Part shown: piece after piece, positions 26,862 through 34,200 of the stretch
How positions within the stretch are numbered: position 1 is the stretch's first letter
Layout: every line of letters starts with the position of its first letter
DNA from: Acanthamoeba lenticulata
Taxonomy: Eukaryota > Discosea > Longamoebia > Acanthamoebidae
Direction of reading: 5' to 3'
Length of the DNA stretch: 64,000 nucleotides
NCBI GenBank assembly: GCA_002179805.1
Contig: NAVB01000925.1
Coordinates: 35,740 to 99,739 of the forward strand
The notes under the pieces: generated by a model
What the model saw: the letters and a program-made list of their open reading frames with translations, nothing else
What the model was told of the DNA's origin: nothing
Database searches by the model: none
Program-made: the position numbers and the translations under genes

Positions 26862-27551
26862 ATGGCGTCTTCCCCTTTGAAGAAGCAGTTCAACTACAGT
26901 TCGTCGGACCTGCCCTGTGCGGGTTGTCAGGAGTTCTTTGTGGAGACCGACGCTGTCGTGCCATGGGGCTCTAAAGAGAAACGGTGGCACCAACAGTGCT
27001 TTGGTTTGTTGTCCTCCTTTTCAAGCGGTGTTCCTGGCCTACAGCCTCATGTTGTGGTGTGCCCTTAGTATGCAAGGGTTGTGGAGCCACGTTTGAGCTC
27101 AAGCAGGGCAAGTGGACCCACCCATCCGGCATTGCAGAGTCGTCCTCAGGCTTTCCGCACTGTGGCGACTGCTACCACCGCCTCCTCGCTGTCTCCTGCG
27201 ATCGATGCAAGGAGGGCATCTCTGGTAGGGCTTCACCTTTCTTTTGCTTCATCGTGCTTGCCTCACAGCTTCTTACCTCGCGCTACACAGGCGGGTACGT
27301 GGACCTCTTCGGGCGCAAGTTCCACCAGGACTGCTTTTGCTGCGACGGCTGTGGCGAGAAGCTTACTAGTAGCTTTGTCAAGCGGCCTGCCGAGAAGAAG
27401 GCCCTCTGCAAGTACTTGGTTCTCCTCAACCCGCGCATTCTCTCTCCTTCTTGCTCATATTGTTCGTCCCGTCAGGAACTGCGTCGGCAAGCAAACGGCA
27501 GCTGGATTCATCATAGACCCTCGCACGGGGCAGAAGAAGTACGCCGCTTGA
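26862..27551 (+). CDS. Two-LIM-domain protein
   Basis: From MASSPLKKQFNYSSSDLPCA the chain holds two zinc-binding LIM domains. LIM1 starts CAGCQEFFVETDAVV and continues HQQCFVCKGC and CGDCYHRL. LIM2 starts CDRCKEGISGGYVDLFG and continues KFHQDCFCCDGC and CKNC. The Cys/His spacing (CxxC, HxxCxxC) is complete in both. The protein ends DPRTGQKKYAA. Four exons join in phase, with introns after QCF, GISG and ALCK. LIM-only proteins of this size in amoebae are mostly adaptors of actin and adhesion. No catalytic domain is present. Confidence 0.85.
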
Positions 27552-27612
27552 TTGATCGTCTATTGGCTTCAAACAAAAGAGGAAAAGCGATTACCTCCGT
27601 CCCATGAGGCTT

Positions 27613-30600
27613 TCACTGTGTGGGGGGCTGCTGCGGGATTGCGCTGGCGAGGAAAGACGACAAGGCGCTGCTCAACTGCTTCGTCTCGATGGCTTGGTCA
27701 CTCTCGAGTTGCGGTTCCTCCTCATGGTGAGCGTCGTCGTCGTCGTCATAGTCTTCCTCATCCTCGGGAGCCCCAGGAAACCCGCCCATCGGGTCGTATC
27801 CTCTGCTTGACAAAGCGGTGATCAGCCTCAAGCTGGAAGCAATAGAGACAAGAAAGGAGGGAGGAGTTGAAAGGACTTACCTCACATCTTGATACTTGAG
27901 GTGCTTGATGACGTACTCGACTTGATTCACCTTGAGCTGCGGCATCGTGAACCAACTTTGCTCTGCGCATACAAATGGATCAGCATTATCGTAATAAATA
28001 ATAATTGTAATTTAAAAACTTACCGACAGCGGGCACGGGGGCGTGGCTGATGTCGCGGACGTCCTGCTCGCAATCCTCGTAGCGGAGCAGGAACGGGAGG
28101 GCGGCCTGCTCGTCGGCGACGGCCTGCACGGTGGCGATGGTGGCCGGGACGCGGTCGAGAAGCGTGCGGGCCTTGGCCACCTTGGCCTCGAGCGCGTGCT
28201 GCTTCTGGGCGTGCACGCTCGTGATGGCCTGGTCCAGTTCCCGCTCCTTCTCATCGAGCAGCCGGCGGAGGCGCTCAAAGCCCTCACGGGCCTTCTTGCG
28301 CTTGCGCTCGACGTCCTGGGCCAATTGGCCCTCCTTGGTCTTCACCTCCTGCACAAACTGCTCCAGCTTGCCCCATTTGGCGTTCTGTCCATGATGGTTG
28401 TTGTCGTTGTGGTTGATGGTCAGCGCCAGCAATCCTCGCGTGGGGCAGGGGGCGGAGGGCAAATACCAGGTCCGTGAGGTCCGACTGGACGCGGGACTTC
28501 AGCTTGGACTGGGCGGTCTCCAAGGCCTCGTAGGTGTGGTTGGCGTGGCTCGAGCCGGCGCACAGGAGGCAGATGAGCTGCTGGTCGTCCATGCAGTAGA
28601 GGCACATCTCCTCCTTGTGCTCGTCGCACCAGCCCTCGCTGCCGCCCGGCGTCCGCTTGCGCTTCCGGTGGCGCTTAAGGGCCTGGAGGCCATGGTGGCC
28701 CTCGAGCGGCGACACCGCGTTACAGAGCACGCACGTCAGGCTCTGGCCCGCGGAGCCATAGCGAGAGCCGCCTCTGCGCCGGTGGAAACCACCGTAGCGA
28801 TAGCCGTCGTCCCGGTCGCTCGGCATGCCCGCCCTGTTGGGTTGCCGAGAACGTGAGTTCACGGGGGCTTCGAGACACATAATCATGAGCACGTACCGCT
28901 TCTCGGCGCACGAGTAGCAGTAGATGTGGGGCTGCTCGCAGGACGGGAGGACGATGTAGGTCTGCGGTGACTGCTTGCAGATAAGGCACACGATGGCTGG
29001 GTCGTAGCTCGCCTCCGAACCGGCATTCTCCTTGTCCTGCGCTACACCGGCTGCTCCACCGCCGCCGCCAGCCATGAGCTCCGCCAGGCTGGGCGGTTTG
29101 ACCGGGGCGTAGGGCGCTGGCGTTGGGGCAACGCTTGGCGTCGGTTGGCCACCTGTCGCGCGTGGATTATGGGTGCTATGAGCGTGCATGTGGGCGGGAC
29201 AAAAAGAAAGAAAAGACATATACCTCCTCCGGCCTTGTTGAGCTCGTTCTGGAGCTGCTGGGCCAGGTCCGCGTCTCCGTCGAGCTGGGCCTGAAGCTGC
29301 AGGGCGAGCAGATAGTCGGTGTCCACTTCGGCGGCCGGACCACCCGCAGCCGCACCTGGCAGTCCGCCAAACCAAGGCGACGATTGCTCACTCTGGGATC
29401 CCGCCTGCGCTGCTGCCATCGAGGGCTGCGGCGGCGCCCCAGTGCCGAAAAGTCCAACCGGCGCGGCACCGGCAGGCAAAGCTTCTAGGACGGCGGCTGA
29501 AGCAGCAGCGGCAGGACTGGGCGAGGATTCGATGTCCATCGCCGCCGGTGAGGCCTCAGGCGCGCTGCTTGTGTGGACAGGCGGCATGTTGCCGCTCTCG
29601 AAAGAGGCGGAGGGGGTGGTTGAAGTGGTGGTCGTGGGGACGGTTGACATCACCATCTTGTCCTCTTCTTCCTCTTCTCCCTCGGAATCTGAGCTCTCCG
29701 ACGAGTCTTCGTCCTCCTTGAGCGCATCGCGTTCCTTTTGCAGGCGGGCTTCCTCGCGCCGCTGAAGGACGGCCTGCTTGATCTTCTCAAGCCGCGACAC
29801 GAAGCTGCCGTACTTGAACATACCGCGCTGCTCTCCAAACGGGTCGCGCATTGTCTTTCCGTCCTTGTCGCGGCGCTTTTCGATCCAGCCCAGGTACTTG
29901 TCGTAGTTGCGCAGGAAGCTCTCCTCCATGATCTCCATAAAGACTGCAAGCCAATACACATCAGCAATCATGGTCGACGATGGCCATGAGCAGCAGCAAC
30001 AGGGACGTACCGGGCGTGGTGGGCTCCTCCATCATGCCGATGATGGCCACTCGCAGGGTCTCGTGCTCGATGCAGTCGTTGTAGTCGGTCACGTCGCGCG
30101 GATGCCGCTCGACCTCGTGGCCGGGCTCGTTGTGGTACGGCTTCTCGTTCATGAGGGACTGGACCGACATCAGCGTCGAAAAGATGGTTTGAATCTCAGT
30201 CCAGCCCGGGCCGCTCCACGTGCCCAGGATTGACAAGCACACCTTGCCGCCTGCGATGGGCGATCACAATCGCGATTAGCCTTCTGGCTGCGAGCTCGGA
30301 GGGGAGGAGGGAGAGGAGGCCAGTACAGGCGTAGAGGTTGGGATTGAAGCGAACGTTCCCGCCATCGGTCGTTTCCAAATGCACCTTGGGGGGCCGCCAC
30401 GGGTAGTCGTGAGGGAACCGCATTTCTGATTGGAGCACAACGTCGTCATTGCCATCAGATTCACCATAAAGGTGTAAAACAATCAAAACGCTCCACCATG
30501 ATGGCGTAGAGGGCGCACCAAAGTGGAAGAAGCCCCCCTCGTACGGCGTGCCCTCTGGCCCTATGATGAGGGCGCTGATGTGGGTGATGTCCTCTTGGTC

Positions 30601-31174
30601 GGGATGCACGTGGCTGGTGGTGGTCAAACAACTTAGGGACACAAAAATAGAGACGACACAGTAGGAAAAGGATCACGTACATGAATGGGTCCTTTGCGTT
30701 GACGGCCTCCCGTAGGTCCGCAATGAGACGCTTGATGGCCTCTTGCGAGGGCGGCACGGCCACCTCTGAGTGATCTGGCCTGTAGCTGCCCCCACCAAAT
30801 GGCGTGGGTGCAGGAACTGGTGGAAAACAAAATGGTGAGTACGCAAGGCAGCGGACTTCCCCAACAGAGCGAGCACATACAGTAGGTTGGAGCAGGCGCA
30901 GGGGGCGGTTGAGCGTTGAAGGCGTTTTGGATCTCCATGGCAATCTGAAGGTCAAGCTCCTCCTGCACAAGCTCGAACTCATAACTCAAGCTTAAACTTC
31001 ACCCGGGCGACAGCGTACCTGCTTCTTTTTTGTTTCGTCTTCGACAAAGGGCTCGCCTTGTTGTTCTTTCTCAGATTGCGACACCGCTGCTGCTGCGGCC
31101 TTTTCATTCGCGGCGATGTCCTCCTGCATGAGCTGCATGGCCAACTTAAACGACTCTTCCTCCATGGGGTCCAT
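27613..31174 (-). CDS. UBE2Z-like ubiquitin E2 fused to a RING/B-box/coiled-coil module
   Basis: The start [20 protein letters not shown] is followed by a 56-base intron and [15 protein letters not shown]; both resemble ubiquitin-interacting motifs. The E2 core is UBE2Z-like: [35 protein letters not shown], active-site Cys in [11 protein letters not shown] (codon 30237-30239), [17 protein letters not shown] and the UBE2Z-specific tail [18 protein letters not shown]. An acidic Ser-rich linker with [20 protein letters not shown] follows. The gene then crosses a phase-1 intron (about 29150-29222) into a RING-type finger ([26 protein letters not shown]), a B-box 2 ([20 protein letters not shown]), a coiled coil (28010-28385) and an acidic C-terminus. 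UBE2Z conjugates ubiquitin or FAT10; an RBCC module usually acts as E3. One chain could hold both activities. Confidence 0.8.
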
Positions 31175-31298: not shown

Positions 31299-34200
31299 AT
31301 GAGAAGGGCGAAAGGAAGCCAGCAAGGAAGGCGATTTGCAGAGATCGGCTTTGCAGGGGCTGTACAAAGCTTTGCCGGACGGTATTCACGCGATGGTGCG
31401 TTCTTTGTGGCGATTTTTTATTTTCTTGTCTTTTATTTTGCTCATCTCAGCTCATGCAGGAGAGGGTAAGGTAGGCAAAGACACACCACCGAAGCGAAGA
31501 AAAGTTGGCGGGTACTTGTGTTCACCGCTTTTCCTTTTGCATGCACGAGCTCAGCGAGCATCCATGCAGGGACGCGTCAGGCACAACGTTGCCACAGGCC
31601 GCATTCGACACCAGTGTCGAGACAGCTCGCCTCAGCCGGCGCGCGGCACCTGACGCAGCCGAGCTGACAGCGTCCATGCCAGAGCCCTTCCGGGAGCACG
31701 CACTGGAGCTGCGTGAGCACCTGGTCCACTTCGCTGTCATCCCACCCAAGGAAGCCCAAAGCGTCCCGCTCGGCGAGGGTACACTCTCGTAAGCCACCTC
31801 ATCACTGAGTACCGTGCGTGAAGATGACGTTCGATTCTTGGTAGTGAAAGGCCTGCCCGATGCGCTGCGCTCGGGGCTGGCAGCTCTGGGCTTCTCGGCA
31901 GTGTACTCGCACCAACTGGAGACCAGGAACCGGATCCGCGAGGGACACGACGTCATCATCACCACGCCCACCTCCAGCGGCAAGAGCCTGTGCTTCAACC
32001 TGGGCATATTCGAGCACCTGCTGAACCACCGGGACCGCGCCTGTGCGCTGTACCTGTTTCCGCTCAACGCGTTGGCCAAGGACCAAGAGGATAAGCTGAA
32101 CCAGCTCAACGCCCGGCTGCCCTTGACCGAGCGGCTCAAGATCGTCTGCCTCACCGGCTCCACAGAGCTCTCGGAGCGCGTGCGCCTATTTGCCGATGGG
32201 CCGCCACACATCGTCGTCTCCAACCCCGACACGCTGCACTACCAGGTGACCGCCCCTTTGGCGATCCCCTGGAGGATGCGAACGTTCCCACTGACCATGC
32301 CAAGCGCTGATGGGCTCATCAGCTGCACCGAGGCAGGGACGGCAGCCGGGACTGGGAGCACTGGCGTGAGTTCTTGCGGCGGCTCCGTTTTTGCGTGCTC
32401 GATGAGGCCCACACCTACTCGGGCGTGCTCGGGTGCCATACGGCCAACCTCATACGACGGCACGTGCGCCATTCATCGCCAGAAGCAGTTGAAGCGTATG
32501 ATCTGCGCTGTGTTGACGCACGTTCATGGGGGTGGTGTTGCGCTCAACAGGCTCTACGCGCAGCTCGACTCGCTGGGTCGAGACTGCAGCGCCGATTCGC
32601 TGCAGTTTATCGTCGCGTCGGCCACTGTGGGCAACGCCACCCAAATGGCCAGCAAGCTCATCGCCCGCGAAGGCACATATGTCACACGCCACCTCGAAAC
32701 TCTTTTAAAGAGACACGGGCCCTGCTTGGAGCGTGCTCACAGTCCATTCGGGGCTACACAGGAGAGGCCCACCAGGCGCGGTTCCACTGGATCGCGGAGA
32801 GCGGAGCGCGCACGCCCGAGCGCGTGTTTCTCTGTCTCGCAGCACAGCAGCACCCGCAGGTCATGGCGGCCCGCATCATCTGCCTCTGGATCCAGGCCGG
32901 CTGGCGCTCTCTCGTGTGCGTCTCCTTTCCCAACAGCCGAGCGGCGACTCCCACACGTGAAGGCTCATCACGCTCGACTCTCTCGGCGTGCGCGCAGCTT
33001 CTGCAACAGCATCGCGCGGGCGACGTCGCTGCTGGCCTTCATCCAGGAGGACAAGCGCTTCGCGTCCTACGCCAACCAAGTGCGGGCCTATTACGCCTCC
33101 GTACCCACCCAGAAGAAGGTGCCCCGCCCGCGCCCAGTGGCCGCCCTGCTTGTTGGTCGAGCTGACCTCTTTCTTCCCCTTCCACCTCCTCGTGTCCAGC
33201 TGAGCATTCTGGAGAACCTCAAGACGGGGTTCATCCGCTGCGTCATCAGCACCAACGCGCTCGAGGCCGGCGTGGACATTCCCGAGCTGGACGCCGTGCT
33301 CCTCCTGGGTTCGCGCGGCAACGACGCTCTTGTTCGTTTCCTCCTCTTTGGCGTTCCTCATGCATCCTCCCGCGCACCACAGGATATCCGGGCAACAAGA
33401 TGAGCCTCTGGCAGCGCGTCGGGCGGGCCGGCCGCGGCCGCGCAGGCCTCGCCGTCTTCCTGCCGTCGGCCAACAGCGCCCTCGACCTCTACTTTGCCGA
33501 ACACCCCGAGGGTAGGGCTGCCTTTTTTCACCTTAGCCGTCCCTAAACGCCACAGCTTTGGGGTTCACGCTTCTCACTTCTCTGCCCCGTCGATGCGCTA
33601 CTCCACAGCGCTGCTGAGCCGGGACATGGAGCGTGTGGCGTTCAACAGCGACTACCCCACGATCCTGGGCAAGCACCTCTGGTGCGCTTGCGTCGAGTCC
33701 GGCATCGAGGTGCGTGCGGGATGAAGCTTGGTTTTCGAGGGAGGCCGGCCTGCGGCTGACAAGTGCTCCTCGACGATCGCTCGCAGGCCGATGAACGCAA
33801 GCTGCAGGAGCGCTTCGGACCGGCCGCGCCGCAGCTGCTCCAATTCCTCGTCCAGCGCGGCGACGTTGTTCGGCGGGACGCGTCTGTGTGTGGAACAACA
33901 GGTTTGCAGCTCCTGTTGTGTTCCTCTTGTCGGGATCTCACAACGACAACGATGTGGACAGGGGCAGGGCGCGCGATGTGGGTGGGACGGGGCTATCCGC
34001 ACCGGGACGTGAACCTGCGCGGTGGCGAGTCGTTCGCGGATGTGCGCGCCGTGTGGAACAAGAACAACGCCATCATCGAAACGCTTGGCGAGAAGCAAGG
34101 TGCATTTTCCTTTATTATTGTGAGTTATTTTGTTATTCTTTCACATATTTACAACATGTTTTGGTCGCACAGCGATCATGCGGCTGTTCCCGGGGGCCGT

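Follow-up and report, generated by a model that had tools for sequence, protein, structure and literature searches.

A UBE2Z-type E2 and a RING/B-box/coiled-coil module encoded by one conserved gene: an apparently undescribed family of E2–E3 hybrids

Binding between an E2 and a RING is usually weak and common to many partners, and artificial RING–E2 fusions have been engineered for structural studies (e.g. PDB 8uqe). E2/E3 hybrids are a known class. BIRC6 and UBE2O each carry a class IV-type E2 inside a larger chain, as does the protein described here, but their layouts differ and are not known to include its RING, B-box and coiled coil. UBE2Z is a 354-residue E2 without E3 domains, whereas the chain described here carries both. 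TRIM/RBCC ligases have the RING, B-box and coiled coil in the same order as our protein, but at their N-terminus, whereas here the module follows the E2 and occupies aa 565–825 of 937. We found no description of a natural E2–RING/B-box fusion among the matches listed from the open-licence literature, and this layout, hereafter E2-RBCC, is apparently undescribed.

The DNA analysed (the window) is a 64,000-nt stretch of the Acanthamoeba lenticulata genome. On its minus strand, to which all features below belong unless stated otherwise, a 12-exon gene extends from the start ATG at 31174 to a TGA stop codon ending at 27613. Exons 1–6 (31174–31019, 30962–30881, 30816–30681, 30613–30519, 30425–30327 and 30250–30011) and exons 7–12 (29943–29224, 29152–28897, 28833–28467, 28384–28024, 27962–27881 and 27832–27613) are separated by 11 GT–AG introns, and once spliced the frame is open for 937 aa. 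The encoded protein contains, in order, an MIU-like motif, a UBE2Z-type E2 with its active-site Cys at position 194, a linker with two MIU-like motifs, a RING-type finger, a B-box and a TRIM-like coiled coil. A C-terminal element encoded by exon 11 (SWFTMPQL...LKY; 27881–27962) is partly conserved in alignments.

The E2 and E3 halves are linked by a 71-nt phase-1 intron (29153–29223; GTATAT...CGACAG). Exon 7 ends with GGA-GGA-G at 29224 and exon 8 begins with GT-GGC-CAA-CCG at 29152, and the phase-1 junction intron with its CGACAG border, as originally predicted, matches the gene model exactly. The E3 half begins with a VKPPxxxEL motif (VKPPSLAEL, aa 527–535; 29076–29102), in which Lys528 is invariant in 10 of 10 aligned rows; the motif lies before the RING and just upstream of an in-frame ATG at 29075. 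That ATG could in principle start a separate RBCC protein, with the E2 gene or transcript ending no later than the intron at 29223–29153. Such a division would also suit the third-position GC of the two halves (0.75 versus 0.85) and the fact that the window gene is known here from genomic sequence alone. We nevertheless regard it as scarcely credible, as the halves are 71 nt apart with matching splice sites and phase, and as the conserved motif lies upstream of the ATG.

A near-identical second copy of the gene, on contig C694 of the same genome, likewise argues against two genes, as it has the same structure and frame. This copy, which is a haplotype or a recent duplicate, keeps all 12 exons and 11 GT–AG pairs. 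Exons contain a single indel, of 3 nt, whereas most introns contain indels; the junction intron of the second copy (GTATGT...CGACAG) has a 1-nt indel. Across the whole gene, 29 changes are synonymous and 5 non-synonymous (dN/dS 0.049). Synonymous and non-synonymous changes number 8 and 0 in the E2 core, 8 and 0 in the linker, and 9 and 1 in the RING–B-box region, and aa 470–560, which span the junction, contain 4 and 0. The coiled coil and C-terminus, with 0 synonymous and 3 non-synonymous changes, go against this trend, although the changes are few.

Relatives were retrieved by a sequence search (17 matches) and a profile search (120 of 232 matches listed). Among the matches listed, nine database proteins (P0001–P0005 and P0018–P0021) have the E2-RBCC layout and are co-linear with the window protein across the junction. 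These nine and the window protein make up a ten-row alignment in which the relatives are 34–43% identical to the window protein. P0001, P0004, P0005 and P0021 come from EukProt under Trinity transcript names, and the sources of the other five are lgn or jgi. P0018, P0020 and P0021 start late, P0021 within the E2. The original prediction had proposed looking for proteins with UBC followed by RING and B-box, and these nine are the outcome among the matches listed. When an E3-half profile was run over 129 retrieved database proteins, the nine again proved to contain the whole half, and P0128 and P0129 part of it. A database search with a 9-row profile of the E3 half only, limited to candidates of 0.55–1.75 times the query length, found no complete stand-alone E3 half; it matched P0128, a 194-aa B-box/coiled-coil fragment, and P0129, a distant B-box protein. 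A regular expression for the joint RING/B-box spacing matched nine of the ten rows, missing P0002, in which the last spacing is shorter. Viral contigs were also scanned, and none of 65 pattern matches was confirmed as a relative.

As judged from the sequences, co-linearity in nine database homologues is more than chance. The one-gene reading of the original prediction is supported by the co-linear relatives, among which four are transcript ORFs, by the second copy and by the conserved motif ahead of ATG 29075, and we reject the two-gene model on these grounds. As distant relatives keep the layout, we conclude that the fusion is real and represents an apparently undescribed family of E2–E3 hybrids: the gene encodes one conserved polypeptide with an intact E2, intact zinc ligands and constraint across the junction.

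The E2 lies at aa ~100–345 (exons 3–7; 29717–30757) and matches Pfam UQ_con above the cut-off (E 4.3e-27). Its best PDB match is UBE2Z (5a4p; E 4.5e-73, aa 106–343), and the alignment includes the C-terminal extension with DPFGEQRG. The UBE2Z-like E2 with an active-site Cys and the C-terminal tail of that family, as first described from the DNA alone, is borne out. The catalytic residue of human UBE2Z is given as Cys188 (PMC4705383); the aligned residue is Cys194 (codon at 30237–30239). Loop-LB Trp195 and loop-LD Phe301 of UBE2Z correspond to Trp201 and Phe305, and all three positions are invariant in 10 of 10 rows, as is the Asn-Pro-Asn motif at residues 184–186. BIRC6 and UBE2O, the next PDB matches, score 116 and 82 bits compared to 250 bits for UBE2Z, which rules out either as the nearest relative of this E2. 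The same genome contains a second UBE2Z-like E2 gene (C191:58998–59195 and C907:2162–2359), with 52% identity over the active-site exon. From translation, the exons downstream in that gene appear to encode a second UBC-like domain.

The RING-type C3HC4 finger (aa 565–632; 28722–28988, interrupted by the intron at 28896–28834) has eight ligands, C565, C568, C581, H585, C588, C591, C629 and C632, none of which varies across the ten rows. In the window protein, 37 residues separate ligands 6 and 7. The match to Pfam zf-C3HC4_3 (E 0.015) scores 15.5 bits, below the 27-bit cut-off, and with E allowed up to 1 the profile detects the finger in 4 of the 10 members. Directly behind the last ligand, six members have Lys or Arg, the window protein has Asn and three have Ser or Gln, such that four of ten members, the window copy included, lack a basic linchpin. 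In contrast, the B-box (aa 664–694; 28536–28628; PF00643, E 9.3e-8) scores 32.5 bits against a cut-off of 24.1 and is found in all ten members at E up to 1. Ligands C664, H667, C675, C683, C686, H691 and H694 are invariant in 10 of 10, while at the one remaining position, which follows C675, the window protein has Asp and members vary, some having residues unable to bind zinc. The coiled coil (aa ~700–825, exons 9–10; 28061–28520) resembles those of TRIM proteins. TRIM72 is the best match of the B-box and coiled coil, at E 6.3e-10 with the single sequence and E 4e-16 with a nine-row profile, which also matches TRIM28, TRIM5 and TRIM25; TRIM_CC detects 3 of the 10 members at E up to 1. Thus, of the RING, B-box and coiled coil originally assigned to this half, the B-box and TRIM-like coiled coil stand, whereas the RING has its eight ligands but is weak by Pfam, in which it differs from TRIM ligases.

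The likeliest function, in which we place moderate confidence from sequence comparison, is that of a single-chain E2–E3 ubiquitin ligase; it is plausible that one chain both charges and transfers ubiquitin. As the finger falls below the Pfam cut-off and the window copy lacks the basic linchpin, RING catalysis, in cis or between the chains of a dimer, is put forward here as a proposal. The E2 surface bears on this point. Residue 166 is Trp in 10 of 10 E2-RBCC members, compared to Ile or Leu in 9 of 10 animal rows and Val in P0022. Its loop corresponds to the one that carries the RING-contacting Phe62 in UBE2D and contacts RINGs in other E2s, and the uniform change would fit a fixed partner. The family also differs from UBE2Z in a Ser-Pro-Ala loop, where Pro is kept in 9 of 10 animal rows and replaced by Glu, Gln or Ser in 10 of 10 E2-RBCC members. 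This Pro is likewise absent from 4 of 6 RING–PUB rows, 6 of 10 U-box rows, P0006, P0009 and P0022 (proteins with other layouts are described below), so its loss is peculiar neither to the E2-RBCC family nor to one group. Loss of Pro from a loop used by RINGs could also mean that RING binding was lost. In that case the finger might be structural only, with the E2 acting without an E3, like UBE2O, and the B-box and coiled coil serving as dimeriser and substrate receptor. The atypical, sub-threshold RING, the four members without a basic linchpin and the position of UBE2O and BIRC6 as the next E2 relatives in PDB would agree with this explanation. We consider it unlikely, although it deserves serious attention, as none of the eight RING ligands varies among the ten members and the Trp166 loop is uniformly changed.

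Two further proteins share the Trp and the following Gln-Thr with the family. P0032 has a VKPP-like stretch followed by a terminal RING-like cluster, although Pfam detects its E2 only, and it may be a shortened E2-RBCC member. P0027, a UBE2Z-type E2 with the family's Trp and loop, has a weak KIX-like domain N-terminal of the E2; it ends in low-complexity sequence, which may be a retained intron.

Among the matches listed, UBE2Z-type E2s are also joined to RING and PUB, to a Ufd2 core and U-box, and to RINGv (P0009). These other fusion proteins include P0010, P0040, P0023–P0025 and P0009, and P0024 has two UBC domains. The RING–PUB (P0010) and Ufd2 core–U-box (P0024) groups resemble E2-RBCC in that a single chain contains both a UBE2Z-type E2 and an E3 domain, but the E3 domain and the order differ, and they lie on separate branches. 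A tree was built from 47 E2 domains chosen from the retrieved database proteins; 22 of its 44 inner branches are open, and its bootstrap had not converged. Six RING–PUB rows and seven U-box rows each form one side of a branch, with support of 100/99 and 100/100. For the ten RBCC rows one change is needed, at a weak support of 76/83, and ungrouped rows may lie inside. Given strong support for the RING–PUB and U-box branches and weak support for RBCC, separate origins of the three layouts are likely, but not proven.

The genome also encodes a UBA6-like E1 (C389 and C1018), which scores 516 bits to UBA6 versus 472 to UBA1 in PDB. One piece of it scores 135 versus 126 bits. A UBA1-like gene taken as control (C756) gives 452 bits to UBA1 and 310 to UBA6; the two queries span different regions of the E1. 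This E1 is probably the expected partner of the UBE2Z-type E2. UBA6 is described as recognising a poly-Ala stretch within the N-terminal extension of UBE2Z (PMC10897158). Five consecutive Ala occur in this extension of the window protein, but as most relatives lack such a run, the likeness to UBE2Z in this respect is weak. Ubiquitin and FAT10 are both reported to be handled by UBE2Z with UBA6 (PMC4705383, PMC10897158), and the single chain might by analogy carry some ubiquitin-like protein in place of ubiquitin, just as FAT10 is carried by UBE2Z in mammals. As human UBE2Z takes ubiquitin too, we regard this as quite improbable.

The linker contains two helical motifs (aa 479–503; 29243–29317) identified by motif counts, and a third lies in exon 1 (aa 7–18); their relation to MIU is one of resemblance only. 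The MIU motif is described as having a conserved Leu-Gln pair (PMC5824887). A strict pattern, D..[hydrophobic]A..LQ.[EQ], gave 31 matches in the ten members with overlaps counted, whereas 500 residue shuffles averaged 0.226 matches and never exceeded 4. A broader MIU-like form occurs in nine of ten members (none in P0021), versus 19 of 116 other database proteins compared.

The single-chain ligase reading draws on the nine co-linear relatives, the invariant E2 Cys and zinc ligands, the constraint seen between the two copies, Trp166, the MIU-like motifs, the UBA6-like E1, the TRIM-type B-box and coiled coil, and the joining of other UBE2Z-type E2s to accepted E3 domains. For such a ligase we infer the following sequence of events. 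An E1, probably the UBA6-like one, would load ubiquitin onto Cys194, and the resulting E2–ubiquitin thioester would be activated by a RING, either that of its own chain or that of the other chain in a coiled-coil dimer. The MIU-like helices may hold ubiquitin or the growing chain, and the B-box, coiled coil and C-terminal element may provide dimerisation and substrate choice.

An AlphaFold2 model of the relative P0001, made with nine rows, has a mean pLDDT of 53.9 and a pTM of 0.35. Its best Foldseek match is UBE2Z 5a4p (E 4.0e-21, target TM 0.84). Within the E2, pLDDT is mostly 70–92, but 42–53 at residues 201–240, which include the active site; residues 367–517 are disordered. The B-box scores 67–74, the coiled coil mostly 66–75, the first half of the RING 61–70, and the RING loop with the last ligand pair 29–43, such that the model around the RING (29–70) is too weak to judge an E2–RING contact.

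More tentatively, and with somewhat more doubt than belief, we suggest that these proteins are widespread protist single-chain E2–RING ligases in which the E3-docking face of the E2 and the built-in TRIM-like RING have evolved together, one of several separate UBE2Z-type E2–E3 fusions (RBCC, RING–PUB, U-box and RINGv). If so, the UBA6–UBE2Z arm of ubiquitin conjugation would have been turned repeatedly into a private E2–E3 conveyor in one polypeptide. A natural E2–RING–B-box–coiled-coil chain would represent a pair fixed by evolution, in which cooperating E1, E2 and RING surfaces can be tested, and it joins a TRIM-type B-box and coiled coil to a UBE2Z-type E2 in an organism whose genome also encodes a UBA6-like E1.

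The same genome contains at least 48 B-box matches, with both copies of each region counted, and as B-box genes are numerous the source of the E3 half may lie within it. The gene is flanked on the other strand by a DEAD-box helicase frame (31793–33403, plus strand; E 6.7e-18) and a LIM-domain frame (26975–27607, plus strand; E 3.2e-5), both ordinary neighbours.
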